64,000 nt of DNA, taken from assembly GCA_003243965.1 (NCBI GenBank), contig QHBO01000016.1, positions 133,076-197,075 on the forward strand, given 5' to 3'. The notes beneath the pieces are model-generated. The model ran no database searches. It saw only the letters and a list, made by a program, of their open reading frames with translations, and was not told the origin of the DNA. Below, one piece after another: positions 15,600-27,275 of this stretch. Position numbers and translations under genes: made by a program. The DNA is from Chloroflexota bacterium (GTDB lineage Bacteria > Chloroflexota > Limnocylindria > QHBO01). The stretch's first letter is position 1. Every line of letters starts with the position of its first letter.

Positions 15600-16568
15600 C
15601 TACTCGTCCATCCCCGGCCCTGCTCCCACTCCACCGCCGGGACGGACGAACCCCTGCGCCTCGCGCGGGATCGGCTCCTGCCAGTTGATCTCGGCGATGC
15701 GTGCCGGTGGGAACTCGCCGTCCGGCGGCACGATCCCCGCCTCGGCCTCGAGCGGAATCCCGATCGGCGCCACGAAGTAGCGGCCCGCAAGTCGTCGCGA
15801 CTCTCGGTCGAGCGCGTAGCCGGCCTTCGCGCGGTGAAAGGTCACGGTCAGGTCGGCCTCGACGACCGGCGTGGAACGGGAGCCATCGGTCAGGTCGATG
15901 CGGGTCGGCGTATCGACCGCCACCACACTGCAGGCACGGCCCGCGGCCCTCGCGTGGGTGCGGATGGCGTTGAGCAGGTCGACTGCGGTCGAGATCGGCT
16001 CGCGCAGAGGACCGCTCGCCCCGCTTCCGAGCAACGCATCCACCAGCACCGTCGCGGATGCCAGCCGAGGGCGAAGGCGAAGCAGCAGCTCCGGCGACGG
16101 CGCGACGTACAGCTCCAGGGAATCGGCGGCGGCCATCGCCTGCAGCACGATCCAGTTGTGGCCGCTCGCCCCGGCCCGGATCCCAGCGGCGTCGCCAATG
16201 AGCACGCACATCACCCGCCTGCCGATGGCGGCAAGGCGGCGCGCGGCGACGAAGCCATCGCCGCCGTTGTTCCCGGGTCCGCACAGCACGCCGACCAGCG
16301 GTGGCTCCGCCAGCGGGCCGCCCGGGCCGCCCGGGCCGGTCGCGGACTCAACCATGCGCGCCAGCTCGGCGAGCACCAGCTCGGTGACTGCGGCCCCGGC
16401 GCTCTCCATCAACGCGTCCGCGCTCAGCCCCAGCTTCTGGGCCGCCTCGTCGATCTCGGCCATCTCGGCGCCGCCGATCAGGACCGGCACCCGGCGCCCC
16501 TGGTTCGCCGCGGGATGTATCGGTGAAGGCCCATCGGCCGCTGCCGGCCCATCGGCCGGATCGGTCAT
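15600..16568 (-). CDS. nnrE: NAD(P)H-hydrate epimerase (YjeF N-terminal domain), stand-alone
   Basis: A 322-aa protein carrying only the YjeF N-terminal epimerase domain, which repairs the damaged cofactor NAD(P)HX. The hallmark CGPGNNGGDGFVAARRL lies near residue 95 and an acidic VVAVDTPTRIDL segment near residue 218 stands where the family usually has a DIPSG-type motif, so that site is altered. The kinase (dehydratase) domain normally fused behind it is missing. About 30 extra residues lead the N terminus. It is the last gene of a three-gene minus-strand operon, overlapping the cytochrome c gene by 4 nt. Confidence 0.85.
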   Translation of the reverse strand: MTDPADGPAAADGPSPIHPAANQGRRVPVLIGGAEMAEIDEAAQKLGLSADALMESAGAAVTELVLAELARMVESATGPGGPGGPLAEPPLVGVLCGPGNNGGDGFVAARRLAAIGRRVMCVLIGDAAGIRAGASGHNWIVLQAMAAADSLELYVAPSPELLLRLRPRLASATVLVDALLGSGASGPLREPISTAVDLLNAIRTHARAAGRACSVVAVDTPTRIDLTDGSRSTPVVEADLTVTFHRAKAGYALDRESRRLAGRYFVAPIGIPLEAEAGIVPPDGEFPPARIAEINWQEPIPREAQGFVRPGGGVGAGPGMDE

Positions 16569-17041
16569 TTCAGCGTCTTCAGGTACGCGACCACGGTCGC
16601 GATCTCCTGCTTGCTGAGCTGGCCGTCAAATGCCGGCATGCTCTTTCGATCGATGCCCTTCACCGCCGGGTCGGTGCCGCCGATCCAGAGCTCTATCCAA
16701 TTGGAGGGGTGCGCCTTGCCGAGCTGCTGGAGGTTCGCGACGGTGGGGCCGTTTTGCAGCCCGTGGAGGTTCGGGAAGGCGCCCGATCCGGTGAGGTCCT
16801 GCCCGTGACACGCCTGGCAGCCGGCCTTCTTGATGATCGCCAGCGCCACGCCGGGATTGGCGCCGCCGCTCGGTGCGGCCGAGCCGCTGGCCCCGGGCAC
16901 GATGCCGACCAGCGACGGGTTGGTGCCGCTCAGGTTCGACGCCAGGTAGACGCCGCCGACCAGGAACAGGAAGACCGTCATCCACGCCGCCCAGGCCGGG
17001 ACGCCGGTCGATCGGGTGCCGATCCGCGTCCGAACGGTCAT
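16565..17041 (-). CDS. membrane-anchored c-type cytochrome
   Basis: A 158-aa mono-heme cytochrome c. One membrane helix (about residues 18-36) is followed by a Gly/Ser/Ala linker and a class I cytochrome c domain with the heme motif CQACH (Cys75, Cys78, His79) and a likely distal methionine in RKSMPAFDGQ. It would sit on the outer face of the membrane. It overlaps both neighbours by 4 nt, so the oxidase-like protein, this cytochrome and the epimerase are co-translated. It resembles the cytochrome partner (CcoO/CcoP or CoxB-like role) of cbb3 oxidases, but the partner here lacks heme ligands. Confidence 0.88.
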   Translation of the reverse strand: MTVRTRIGTRSTGVPAWAAWMTVFLFLVGGVYLASNLSGTNPSLVGIVPGASGSAAPSGGANPGVALAIIKKAGCQACHGQDLTGSGAFPNLHGLQNGPTVANLQQLGKAHPSNWIELWIGGTDPAVKGIDRKSMPAFDGQLSKQEIATVVAYLKTLK

Positions 17042-18603
17042 CGGCCGCCCATGGTCGCCGAAGGGGCGGAAATCGGCCCCGGGCTGTTCCCCGACGATAC
17101 GGTGATCGGGTCGTCGGCCGCGGGGCTGACGGTCACCGCCTCCACCGGCCGGCCGCTGGTGTACATCAGGAACAGCTCCACCAGCAGCGTGAGCGGCCCG
17201 AGCGCAGCCAGCGCGATCCCCAGAGCGGCCGCCGCCCGGTACCCGAACAGCTGCGCGGCGAGCTGGTCACCGCTCAAACCCTGGCCGGCCAGCGAAGCGT
17301 GCGCCAGGCCGGCGGCCATCAGCCCCAGCCCGCCGATGGTCACGCCGGCGAACGTGGTCCACAGGCGGACGGAGGCCATCGGTGTCTCCCGCCAGGCTCG
17401 GCGCAGGACACGCGGCAGAGCGTGGTCGGCCGCCGCATAGCCCGCAAAGGTGAAGGCACCATAGGCGGCGAACAGCCAAGCGCCAGCGGTCCACTCGGTC
17501 GGTGTCACGCTGGCCTGCACGCTGCGCAGCGAGCCGACAGCATCGAGTACCGCTCCCGCCAGCAGGAATGCCAGCGAGACGAGCGCGAAGGTGAGCGTCC
17601 CGGGCGTGAGCATCAGAGACCACCGGCCGCTCAGCGTGAAGACCAGGTTACCGATGACCAGGAAGACCGGCAGCACGAGCAGGATGGTCGCCACGTTGCC
17701 GGCGGTGGTGATGAAGTACGGGACCGTCGGATCGAGCAGCGCGCCGAGCGCGGAGCCGCCGGCGAGTACCAGCCACGTGACCAAGGCGAGCAGCGCCAGG
17801 CCGCCGGAGGCGAGCGGGTTGCCGGTGGCGCGCGGGACGACGTAGAAGAGCGTGGCAAACGTGATGCCCAGCAGCCAGTAGGTCGAGATGCCGCGTGCCG
17901 TGAAGGCGTCGACCAGCGCGAGGTTGGTGCCCGACAGCACGATCGGCGCGGCGGAGGCGAGCGCATACAGGCCGAGCAGTGCAAGCAGCCCCACGCCCGC
18001 AAAGAGGAGGCTGACATACGGACGATCTCCGCCGCTGAACTGCGCGCGCGCCGCGATCAGCGTCCGCCAGAAGGCCGCGTTGACGATGAAGATGCCCAGC
18101 AGCGCCAACCCGTCGACCGGGAGCGGGAACGTCGCGAGGCTGCCGCTGCCCGCGATCTTGGGCAGGAAGACGGTGAGCAGCCCGGCCGCCAGCGCCAGGT
18201 TCCAGACCAGCGCCCCGAGGAAGGCGATCCCCTCACCGGGGATCCGCTCGCCGGTCAGCCGCGGCGCGAGGAACAGCGCAACGGCGAATCCGGCATTGGT
18301 CAGCCAGCCGTAGACCAGCGCGTTGATGAAGGCGGCCTGGACGGTGATCGGGCTGATCTCGAAGGGCTGGTTGACGACCGGCAGCTGGAATCCGGCCCGC
18401 AGCTGCGGAAAGAGCAGCTGGGCAGCCCACAGCATCGCGAGCCCCGAGGCGGCCAGGAACCAGAGCGCGCCGAAGACGAAGAACCAGGTCGCCGCGGAGT
18501 CGGGAGCCGCGGGGATCAGGGAGCGTCGTCGCTTGGGCGGTTGGTCGTAGGGCCGCAGTTTCTTGGCGTATCCGGTCATCTGCGGGCGCAGGCCTCCGAG
18601 CAT
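17038..18603 (-). CDS. heme-copper oxidase subunit I (CcoN)-like membrane protein lacking the metal-ligand histidines
   Basis: A 521-aa protein with about 12-14 membrane helices whose layout follows cbb3 oxidase subunit I: NALVYGWLTNAGFAVALFLAPR (residues ~94-115) fits the low-spin heme helix and ISTYWLLGITFATLFYVVPR (~239-258) the Cu-B helix. The expected histidines are absent: no RxxHT in the first, no WYGHN in the second, and no HHxH after WLVLAGGSA (~277-285). The whole protein has only two His (394 and 435). It therefore cannot be a normal oxygen reductase. It is coupled to a cytochrome c gene. The start may be ATG 18603 or ATG 18579 (GGAGG 13 nt upstream). By homology this is a degenerate or repurposed oxidase subunit. 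Confidence 0.75.
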   Translation of the reverse strand: MLGGLRPQMTGYAKKLRPYDQPPKRRRSLIPAAPDSAATWFFVFGALWFLAASGLAMLWAAQLLFPQLRAGFQLPVVNQPFEISPITVQAAFINALVYGWLTNAGFAVALFLAPRLTGERIPGEGIAFLGALVWNLALAAGLLTVFLPKIAGSGSLATFPLPVDGLALLGIFIVNAAFWRTLIAARAQFSGGDRPYVSLLFAGVGLLALLGLYALASAAPIVLSGTNLALVDAFTARGISTYWLLGITFATLFYVVPRATGNPLASGGLALLALVTWLVLAGGSALGALLDPTVPYFITTAGNVATILLVLPVFLVIGNLVFTLSGRWSLMLTPGTLTFALVSLAFLLAGAVLDAVGSLRSVQASVTPTEWTAGAWLFAAYGAFTFAGYAAADHALPRVLRRAWRETPMASVRLWTTFAGVTIGGLGLMAAGLAHASLAGQGLSGDQLAAQLFGYRAAAALGIALAALGPLTLLVELFLMYTSGRPVEAVTVSPAADDPITVSSGNSPGPISAPSATMGGR

Positions 18604-18623
18604 CGCTGAGCCGGGACGGCGGC

Positions 18624-23414: not shown

Positions 23415-26400
23415 GTGCGCCACATGCGTGTTCGACGACTCTTCAGCCTGCCGCTGGTCCTCGCGCTGCTTGCCGGCGCCCCGGCGGTCAGCCAGTCGGC
23501 TGCGGCAAAGGGCAATCCCCCGCCGGCGCGCGCCCAGAGTGCCATCTTCTTTGCCTCCGACGGCATGCGACAAGACCTGGTGGAGCGCTACGTGGCGTCC
23601 AACCCGAGGCAGTTCTCCACCTTTGCCGCCCTGCTCAAGCGCGGGGTGAAGAGCGCCACGGGGATGATCAGCCAGGCGCCCCCGAACACGGGCGCGGGCT
23701 GGAACACGATGGCCACCGGCGCCTGGGTCTCGGAGACTGGCACCACCAACAACACCTTCCACAAGAGCGGCACCGACTTTTCGCAGGGCACGTCCGCGTT
23801 CGGGACCGGCAGCCTGCTGGCCGAGACGGCCGCGCAGGCGTGGGAAAAGGCCGGCAAGAAGGTCGCGCTGGTGGAGTGGCCCGGCGGGCGCGACGCTCCG
23901 ATCAACGGCCCGGTGGTCGACTTCCGCAGCTTCTTCTCCGGTCGGGGGGTGACCACCAACTACGTCCAGCCCGCGCCGCTCGACGACGCGTCGTTCATCA
24001 GCGGCCTCGGGCTGCAGTTCGATTCCAACGTCGACCATCCGGGTCTCAACAACACCAGCTACCCGCCCAACCCGGCATACGCGGGGACCACGCTGGCCAC
24101 CGCCGACGGATGGACGAACCTGCCCGCCAGCACGCTGCCGCCGATCTCGGTGCGGATGCGAGTCCTGGACTTCGGGGTAGACCGATACGGCCTGAACGCG
24201 CTGATCTACAGCGGCCGCGGGGCGGGACGCACCTACACCCGCGTCCTGTTCGACACCGACAAGAACCCCGGCAACGGCATCGTGGCCGACCTGGCGGCCG
24301 GCGGCTGGGGGCAGACCAAGGTCACCGTCGCCGCCGGACCCAAGGCGGGCAAGACGGCCGGCTTCCTGTTCAAGGTCGAGCGCCTCCAGACCGATGCGGC
24401 CGGCCACCCGGTGTATCGCCTGTTCCACACGTCGGTCGCCCGCTCCAACGCCTCGTGGACGACATGGCCCGGCGAGCCCGGCTTCACCGGCGACTTCGAG
24501 GACTTCATCGCGGCGCGCTTCCCGGTCTCGACCGCAGCCGACTTCGCGGTCGTGGAGGGGGGCATCGTCAGCGAGGAGACCTACGCCCAGCAGGGACTCG
24601 CCTGGGAGACCGCCCATCGGCCGGTGGTCGACTACATCGCCAGGAAGTACAACCCGGACATCTTCTTCGCCGGCTACCCAGTGACCGATGAATTCCAGCA
24701 CCAGTTCCTGTCGCTGGTCACGCCGACCGTGCCCAACGGGGATCCGAACCCGGCGTATGACGATTTCGATCTCAACGGCGTGCGCGACGGGCGGGTCGCG
24801 GTCCGCGAGGGCTTCATCCGCCGCGCGTACCAGGGGGCCAACGACTGGCTGCGCCTGGTGCAGCAGACGATGGATCGCGCGCACCGCGACCCGATCACCT
24901 TCGTCGGCGCGGACCACGGCTTCGCGCCGCAGTTCCTCGCGCTGGATGGGGCCCTGCCGCTCTACCGCCTGGGCCTGCAGTCCGCGGAGCAGACCAGCAA
25001 CTGCCGCCCAAAGTCGGGGCTGGACGTCGCCAAGGCGTGCTGGGCCGGCGGCGCGCTGCAGATCTATCTGCAGCTCATCGATCGTGATCCCGATCCGCGG
25101 ACCCCGGCCCAGAAGGCCGCCAATGTGCCGGATCCACGCCTCACAAGCGCGCAGTACGCAACGGTCCGTTCGCAGATCATCAATGCCTACCGCGCGCTGA
25201 GCGACCCGGCGCACCCCGGCTGGAAGGTGATTGACGCGGCGTACACCAAGGAGCAGACCCGCTACATCGACGACGGGGTCGGCGGCTCGATCAACATGCT
25301 GCATCCGACCCGGACCGGCGACGTGGTCGTCTTCGCTTACCCGCCTTACCAGTGGGACGCCCAGACCCCGGGCCAGCAGATCGCTCCGTCCCACTTCTTC
25401 GGCCAGCACGGCTACCAGCCGAGCGTCCAGAACCTGGCCGCCAACGTGAACATGCGGGCCGCCTTCATGGCCGAGGGCCCCGGGATCCGACGTGGCAGCG
25501 TTGAGAACGTCCGCGCGGTCGATCTCGCCCCCACCCTGGCCTTCGCGCTCGGCCTGCCCGCTCCGGCGAACGCGAGCGGCAGGATCCGCTTCGACCTGTT
25601 CTCGAACGGCGACGGCCTGCGAGAGGTGACGCTGCTGAACATCAGCGACTTTCACGGCCAGCTCGAGCCGCTCAGCGAGCGGGTCGACGGGGTCAGCAAC
25701 AAGATCGGTGGCCTCGCCTACCTGGACAAGCTGTTCAACGAGGCCGGAGCCGCGGCCAACGGCGACCTGTTCCGCTTCGCCGGCGGCGACTCGGTGGGCG
25801 CCTCACCGCCGATCTCCGGGTTCTTCGAGGACATGCCGACCATCGACGCCATGAACCTGGCGCGCTTCAATGCCGACGGCATCGGCAACCACAACTTCGA
25901 CGCCGGGGTCTCCCGGCTCGAGGCCCAGGCGGCACGCGCGCAGTTCCCGTACGTGACTGCCAACGTCTTCGTCAAGGGCACCAACACGCGCCCCGCGTGG
26001 GCCAAGCCGTACCTGATGCAGACCCTGTCCGGCGTGAAGGTCGCGTTCATCGGTTTCACGAATACCGATGTGCCGAACCTGGTCAAGCCCACCAACGTGG
26101 CCAACCTCGAGTTCCGTGATCCCGCGCCGATCATCAACGCGCTGGCCGCGCAGCTGCGACGCAAGGGCGCGAGCGCGGTGGTCGCCTTCGGCCATGCCGG
26201 CGCCCTGTCGTGCACGGATCGCTTTGGTCGAGCGTGCAGCGGGCCGCTGCAGACCCTGGCCGGTCGGCTGTCCGGCGTGGACGTCCTAGCCGGCGACCAC
26301 ACCGGTGTGCAGGTCGATCAGATGGTCACCGGCGCGGATCGCCTGCCGATCCTGGTCACCGAGAACCTTTCCAAGGGAGCGCGCTTCACGGAGATCAAGC

Positions 26401-27275
26401 TGGTCTTCGGCAGCGCCTCGGACGTGGAGCAGGAAGGGGACCGCGACATGGCGGCCCGGGGCGACGGGCGCGGCGACGGCCTGCGGCTGCTGTACGCGAC
26501 CGCCCGCTGGCACCTGCCGTGGAACATGGGTGTGACGCCGAACCCCGACATCACCCAGATCATCACCGACCGCAAGGCGGCGCTGGTGCCGGTCCTGGGC
26601 GAGCGCCTGGGCGTCTCCACGGTTGAGATCGCGCGCGCGGACCCGTGCGGCAATGCCGAGGGCCGCACCTGCGAGTCGCTGGAGGGGAACCTCGTGACCG
26701 ATGCGCTGCGCGCCACCTACGGGGTGGACTTTGCGTTCCAGAACTCCGGCGGCCTGCGCGCCAACGTGACCTGCCTGGCCGGCGAGTCAACCGATTCCCT
26801 TGGCCTCCCCTGCCGCGACGGCGCCAACTTCATCGTGCGCAAGAACGGCATCCTCTCGATGCTGCCGTTCAACAACGCGGCGGTGACCCTCACCGTCTCG
26901 GGCAGTGAGCTGAAGCAGATCCTGGAGAACGGCGTGGCCCAGATCGGTGGCGGGCGATTCCTCCAGGTTTCGGGGCTTCGGGTGAAGTTCAACCCGGCGG
27001 CAGCGGTTGGCAGCCGGGTGCAGGGTGCATGGCTGTTCGACGGAACCACGCTGGGGGCGGCGATCTCGCTGACCGGCGCCGATACGACCCAGTACTCGAT
27101 CGCGATGAACGACTTCATGGCCGTCGGCGGCGACTTCTACCCGAACTTCTCGGGCCGCTACACCACGCGCAACATCCTGGCCGACGACGTGATGGCCTAT
27201 GTCAGCGCCCTGGGGACCATCTCGCCGGCGATCCAGGACCGGCTGGTGGGCGACGGGTTCGGGCCTCTGGGCTGA
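23415..27275 (+). CDS. secreted bifunctional phosphodiesterase/alkaline phosphatase - 5'-nucleotidase fusion
   Basis: A 1286-aa exported protein. A signal peptide (RLFSLPLVLALLAGAPAVSQSA) leads a type I phosphodiesterase/nucleotide pyrophosphatase domain: SAIFFASDGMRQDLVERY with the metal-binding Asp, a GAGWNTMATG nucleophile-region Thr, and later FVGADHGFAPQF and HFFGQHGY. From about residue 735 a calcineurin-type 5'-nucleotidase domain follows, with DFHG, GGDS, GNHNFD and GDHTG metal-site motifs, then the C-terminal substrate domain (NSGGLRANV, KNGILSMLPFNN). The two would strip phosphate from nucleotides outside the cell. GTG 23415 has GGAGGGAG 7 nt upstream. Joining both enzymes in one chain is unusual; phosphate genes lie 30 kb away. 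Confidence 0.85.
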   Translation: MRHMRVRRLFSLPLVLALLAGAPAVSQSAAAKGNPPPARAQSAIFFASDGMRQDLVERYVASNPRQFSTFAALLKRGVKSATGMISQAPPNTGAGWNTMATGAWVSETGTTNNTFHKSGTDFSQGTSAFGTGSLLAETAAQAWEKAGKKVALVEWPGGRDAPINGPVVDFRSFFSGRGVTTNYVQPAPLDDASFISGLGLQFDSNVDHPGLNNTSYPPNPAYAGTTLATADGWTNLPASTLPPISVRMRVLDFGVDRYGLNALIYSGRGAGRTYTRVLFDTDKNPGNGIVADLAAGGWGQTKVTVAAGPKAGKTAGFLFKVERLQTDAAGHPVYRLFHTSVARSNASWTTWPGEPGFTGDFEDFIAARFPVSTAADFAVVEGGIVSEETYAQQGLAWETAHRPVVDYIARKYNPDIFFAGYPVTDEFQHQFLSLVTPTVPNGDPNPAYDDFDLNGVRDGRVAVREGFIRRAYQGANDWLRLVQQTMDRAHRDPITFVGADHGFAPQFLALDGALPLYRLGLQSAEQTSNCRPKSGLDVAKACWAGGALQIYLQLIDRDPDPRTPAQKAANVPDPRLTSAQYATVRSQIINAYRALSDPAHPGWKVIDAAYTKEQTRYIDDGVGGSINMLHPTRTGDVVVFAYPPYQWDAQTPGQQIAPSHFFGQHGYQPSVQNLAANVNMRAAFMAEGPGIRRGSVENVRAVDLAPTLAFALGLPAPANASGRIRFDLFSNGDGLREVTLLNISDFHGQLEPLSERVDGVSNKIGGLAYLDKLFNEAGAAANGDLFRFAGGDSVGASPPISGFFEDMPTIDAMNLARFNADGIGNHNFDAGVSRLEAQAARAQFPYVTANVFVKGTNTRPAWAKPYLMQTLSGVKVAFIGFTNTDVPNLVKPTNVANLEFRDPAPIINALAAQLRRKGASAVVAFGHAGALSCTDRFGRACSGPLQTLAGRLSGVDVLAGDHTGVQVDQMVTGADRLPILVTENLSKGARFTEIKLVFGSASDVEQEGDRDMAARGDGRGDGLRLLYATARWHLPWNMGVTPNPDITQIITDRKAALVPVLGERLGVSTVEIARADPCGNAEGRTCESLEGNLVTDALRATYGVDFAFQNSGGLRANVTCLAGESTDSLGLPCRDGANFIVRKNGILSMLPFNNAAVTLTVSGSELKQILENGVAQIGGGRFLQVSGLRVKFNPAAAVGSRVQGAWLFDGTTLGAAISLTGADTTQYSIAMNDFMAVGGDFYPNFSGRYTTRNILADDVMAYVSALGTISPAIQDRLVGDGFGPLG

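Follow-up and report, generated by a model that had tools for sequence, protein, structure and literature searches.

A conserved Chloroflexota protein with a predicted CcoN fold, no metal-ligand residues and an overlapping cytochrome c gene

The window, a 64,000-nucleotide stretch of a Chloroflexota contig, carries the following genes and motif.

17038..18603, minus strand, protein of the COX1 family with a CcoN-like fold and no metal ligands, 521 aa
16565..17041, minus strand, membrane-anchored monohaem cytochrome c, 158 aa, one N-terminal transmembrane segment
16805..16819, minus strand, CQACH haem c attachment motif, as read from the sequence
15600..16568, minus strand, YjeF_N/NnrE (NAD(P)HX epimerase) gene, Pfam YjeF_N at 103 bits, third in a conserved run

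The initial annotation gave the coordinates of the COX1-like gene and the cytochrome c gene correctly, and the overlap that it described with a normal CQACH cytochrome c gene was found as an ATGA in which the stop of the COX1-like frame shares 4 bases with the ATG of the cytochrome c. The same kind of overlap joins the cytochrome c gene to the YjeF_N/NnrE gene, which may just be a co-transcribed neighbour of the pair. The axial Met of the cytochrome c is probably that in SMPAF. The homologues of the 521-aa protein begin near the motif KKLRPYD, so the true start of the open reading frame is likely Met9, at base 18579. Across the CcoN-like gene there is also an antisense open frame of 578 codons (window 16873-18609, plus strand); there is no evidence that it is a gene, and long antisense frames are common in this GC-rich sequence.

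As the initial annotation had proposed, the 521-aa protein can be placed in the heme-copper oxidase superfamily as a homologue of subunit I. First, its score of 79.3 bits exceeded the cut-off of Pfam COX1 (PF00115), 34.8 bits, it matched no second Pfam family, and its best sequence matches in the PDB were CcoN chains. Second, using a joint profile of the window's family and its Verrucomicrobia relatives, CcoN was found first, followed by A-type oxidases, NorB and ba3. Third, the AlphaFold2 model built on the 20-member alignment (pLDDT 84, pTM 0.85) returned CcoN structures at the top of the Foldseek search, with TM scores of 0.79 by query and 0.88 by target. A profile placement outside the superfamily was looked for and did not appear. 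From this model, the protein is predicted to have the subunit I fold of the superfamily with 12 helices, nearest to the C-type. Against the NCBIfam ccoN equivalog, it scored 51.1 bits where the cut-off is 583, and thus it is not CcoN by the NCBIfam standard.

Compared with CcoN, the subunit I of cbb3 oxidases (PDB 3mk7, 9g6b and 8smr), the window protein has the same fold and helix order, shares N-side loop motifs such as YxxPRxxxxPLxS as well as T[DE]W before helix X, and is likewise adjoined by a cytochrome c gene. In contrast, the two are only about 19% identical, and the ligands of heme b, heme b3 and CuB are missing from the window protein together with the cross-linked Tyr. Neither CcoO nor CcoP lies alongside: the neighbouring protein matches Cytochrom_C and Cytochrome_CBB3, not FixO (CcoO), and the next is YjeF_N. 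NorB also shares the fold of the superfamily (3o0r, TM 0.71 by query), but its structural score is lower than that of CcoN, and it needs the same His ligands for two hemes and FeB, at columns where the 521-aa protein has no His. A catalytic heme-copper subunit I carries two His for the low-spin heme, one for the high-spin heme and three for CuB, and this set is absent here.

The ligand columns were read by MAFFT and independently by hhalign profile-profile alignment (E 6.7e-42), in the numbering of 3mk7, and we take the ligand roles of the CcoN residues to be as in that structure. The columns fall on these codons of the window gene, listed together with one further His.

18328..18330, minus strand, F92, column of the low-spin heme b ligand CcoN His60, Phe in 18/18
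17893..17895, minus strand, R237, column of the CuB ligand CcoN His207, Arg in 18/20
17761..17763, minus strand, A281, column of the cross-linked Tyr251 (CcoN helix VII)
17740..17745, minus strand, G287-A288, column of the CuB ligand pair His257-His258
17479..17481, minus strand, A375, column of the high-spin heme ligand His345
17473..17475, minus strand, L377, column of the low-spin heme ligand His347
17422..17424, minus strand, H394, in the motif [DE]HAxPR, the sole invariant His of the family, at no CcoN ligand column

Both methods gave the same pairing with CcoN, and a misalignment that hides the ligands was therefore rejected; neither alignment recovered a ligand residue. The earlier statements that the low-spin heme His, the His/Tyr and the copper/heme ligands are all absent and that the 521 residues hold only two His (H394 and H435) are thus both borne out. 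Among the 20 family homologues, no His occurs at any of the six ligand columns. Apart from the columns of F92 and R237, these positions hold small or aliphatic residues in the family alignment, with few exceptions, and the fixation of Phe and Arg at two ligand sites argues for a reworked pocket, not drift. With the usual metal-binding residues gone, the reduction of O2 or NO by the heme-copper mechanism is not expected of this protein. The initial annotation overlooked that H394 is invariant (20/20); it sits near the end of helix X, aligned to no CcoN metal ligand.

This residue bears on one alternative, in which a heme, a quinone or another ligand is bound in some non-canonical fashion, for example by His394 or in a pocket around Arg237, and the protein acts either as a sensor or as a quinol:cytochrome c oxidoreductase. 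The invariance of His394 and the strong conservation of the N-side loops in the family would fit such binding. However, the six canonical columns conserve no typical haem or copper ligand, and the end of helix X is far from the canonical heme level, and we consider this alternative unlikely. A different use of the pocket is that of a cofactor-free ion or proton conductor, in which the old proton-channel scaffold would serve in a conducting or gating role, perhaps through the buried Arg237 with the nearby Asp291 and Glu370, and would be adjusted according to whether the cytochrome c is oxidised or reduced. Here the conservation is favourable, with Arg237 at the former CuB site, Asp291 in 18/20 homologues and an acid at position 370 in 19/20, but Tyr251 is lost and no driving redox centre lies inside the protein; the conductor is in our judgement a rather improbable reading.

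The gene is present in 20/22 genomes of the window's own family and was not found in the other 79 relatives searched. Among 400 genomes drawn from the phylum, ligand-less relatives occurred in the window's family only; seven other genomes of the phylum gave weak matches, of which six are CcoN proteins with the ligand motifs kept and the seventh (L094) is short. The copies in the family are open-framed and 36-51% identical to the window protein, and close pairs have dN/dS values of 0.14-0.19, in agreement with the earlier view that the frame is intact and under selection. A pseudogene or an artefact was rejected on these grounds, namely the open frame kept in 20 genomes, the conserved neighbours and the low dN/dS. 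The related proposal that an oxidase gene is decaying and being lost could appeal to the loss of all catalytic residues and to the very long branch leading to the group (about 1.7 changes per site). It is contradicted by the selection data, with the frame open in 20 genomes at such levels of identity, dN/dS far below 1 and both the new residues and the neighbours conserved, and we regard it as highly improbable.

The coupling to a cytochrome c is equally constant. A single-TM, monohaem CxxCH cytochrome c lies downstream in all 20 copies with a readable flank, and none of these copies has a ligand His. In these 20 copies, the cytochrome c starts at -59 to +9 bases from the stop of the CcoN-like gene, the more negative distances being due to the use of the earliest possible cytochrome c start. 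NnrE follows the cytochrome c in the 17/17 copies that extend far enough. This YjeF_N gene thus comes after the cytochrome c in every readable genome of the family, often with an ATGA overlap, and a functional link is not evident.

A parallel case was found in Verrucomicrobia, where 47 loci encode CcoN-like proteins, nearly all of them 22-28% identical to the window protein. Both helix-X His are missing from every protein that covers the region, and the His257-His258 pair is complete in none; some still have a single His at 60, 207, 257 or 258. In the clusters that were read, the CcoN-like gene has on one side the genes of alternative complex III (ACIII), for NrfD, ActD and a monohaem cytochrome, and on the other that of an intact aa3 subunit I. 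After it come genes for CcoO- and CcoP-like cytochromes with intact CxxCH motifs.

L026 390-10665, cluster of ACIII, CcoN/CcoO/CcoP-like and aa3 genes; also at L045, L054, L060 and L065

The protein of L026 scored 121 bits against the ccoN model with the ligands missing, and each of the four Verrucomicrobia genomes checked has ordinary A-type subunits I too. Like the window protein, the Verrucomicrobia proteins (Prosthecobacter, Brevifollis, Akkermansiaceae, Spartobacteria LR76) have the CcoN fold by profile, retain neither the helix-X His nor the His257-His258 pair, and are coupled to haem-c proteins. They differ from it in the CcoO- and CcoP-like partners, in the ACIII-aa3 cluster and in the single His kept by some of them.

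Relatives of the Verrucomicrobia type with all ligands kept are carried on plasmids of Azoarcus, Cupriavidus, Paraburkholderia, Paracoccus and Indioceanicola. These proteobacterial proteins are a distinct C-type subgroup, and in the LG tree the Verrucomicrobia proteins group with them (99.9/82), apart from the window's family. Under a mixture model, joining both ligand-less groups gave a p-AU of 0.497, by which their union is neither shown nor rejected. The plasmid genes (L095 8806-13921, L096 8743-15605 and L097-L099) lie beside genes for a CcoO-like protein and c-type cytochromes, and near them are SCO and msrBA genes in Azoarcus and genes for a P-type ATPase and a molybdopterin oxidoreductase in Paraburkholderia.

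The genome of the window encodes two intact A-type subunits I, a QcrB/QcrC complex with both proteins above the NCBIfam cut-offs, and a second cytochrome b complex, which includes a diheme cytochrome. The latter (L116 8319-13063, contig 16 of the genome) is near NCBIfam ExtP at 302 bits, above the cut-off, and its diheme cytochrome c is accompanied by what looks like a large glutamate-synthase-type oxidoreductase gene. NrfD was not found in this genome, which thus gives no sign of ACIII. Only four c-type cytochrome proteins exceeded the cut-offs of two Pfam models, the window's cytochrome c included. A frame of 826 codons on contig 17 (L117 3953-6433) looks like a fusion of a CopC/CopD-like membrane protein with a cytochrome c domain.

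Based on these results, we propose that the window protein may descend from subunit I of a C-type (cbb3-like) oxidase and be free of cofactors. The 12-helix CcoN fold would have been kept, and the low-spin heme b, the high-spin heme and CuB could not be bound through the usual residues. Together with the membrane-anchored cytochrome c, to which it appears to be translationally coupled, the protein would most likely assemble into a small complex in the membrane, with the CcoN fold as the structural platform that docks and positions the cytochrome. Electrons would then pass via the cytochrome c between complex III, for which the QcrABC-type bcc complex and the second cytochrome b complex are the candidates here, and an aa3 oxidase. 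The evidence for complex formation is the gene coupling, from which we infer the physical association; the electron-relay role and the partner complexes are likewise putative. We give an even chance to this reading, in which a CcoN-fold scaffold without cofactors tethers c-type cytochromes between complex III and complex IV.

Besides the fold, the ligand loss, the conservation and the gene coupling described above, two further points speak for the scaffold. First, c-haems are kept while the redox centres of CcoN go, in two groups of bacteria, and a membrane platform is the simplest reading of this pattern. Second, the window's genome has aa3 oxidases and a bcc complex that such a relay could serve. 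For comparison, direct electron transfer was reported in ACIII-oxidase supercomplexes of Rhodothermus and Flavobacterium (PMC5928083). The NrfD-like ActC/ActF of ACIII can be compared in function only: each is a multi-helix membrane subunit without cofactors and bears redox subunits on its periplasmic side, but the fold is unrelated and quinol-binding. Several points stand against the scaffold. The window's genome is without ACIII, and its QcrC-type complex might pass electrons to an aa3 oxidase with no additional cytochrome. In the window, no genes of complex III or IV adjoin the gene pair, and the window's family has no separate CcoO or CcoP partner. Among the functions suggested in the initial annotation, the electron-transfer scaffold is the best match, chiefly in view of the parallel gene cluster in Verrucomicrobia, and a new complex, also suggested there, is possible; for a quinol or ion-handling module, positive evidence was not obtained here.

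Alternatively, the protein could help to assemble or stabilise the aa3 oxidases or the cytochrome c, for instance as a chaperone that imitates subunit I while partners are inserted. In favour of this, it mimics the subunit I fold, the genome encodes two catalytic subunits I, and its gene is coupled to that of a cytochrome c. However, its fold is nearest to the C-type and the oxidases of the genome are A-type, and in Verrucomicrobia the retention of CcoO/CcoP-like partners alongside the analogue points to a structural complex; there is little likelihood, in our opinion, of an assembly role.

In the open-access literature, with most subscription journals outside the search, no published description of a ligand-less CcoN or subunit I was found. 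In verrucomicrobial methanotrophs and Opitutaceae, genes for C-type oxidases next to ACIII were treated as oxidases, and in the part of that paper covered here missing ligands go unmentioned (PMC8498564). For acidobacterial cbb3 oxidases, no contribution was detectable at low oxygen (PMC8407424). Returning to the scaffold, we tentatively suggest, from sequence, gene order and selection, a recurring and undescribed respiratory class, which might consist of CcoN-fold proteins that have lost their redox centres in two phyla, possibly independently, and that would be the membrane core of cytochrome c complexes wiring complex III to aa3 oxidases, with cofactor-free ion handling as a further possibility.

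Heme-copper oxidase subunit I is defined by its metal ligands, and a conserved family without any ligand but with the fold and a cytochrome partner points to a second, non-catalytic use of the fold. Matches to COX1 or to 'cbb3 subunit I' are therefore not all terminal oxidases and should be counted with caution; for example, the CcoN-like protein of the Verrucomicrobia cluster, which lacks the helix-X His, would be taken for a cbb3 oxidase by most annotation. Should the scaffold reading hold, the electron path from complex III to complex IV can be directly tested in cultivable Verrucomicrobia. Elsewhere in the window (23415-27275, plus strand), an open reading frame of 1286 aa resembles, as judged by eye, a fusion of a phosphodiesterase/phosphatase with a 5'-nucleotidase-like part.
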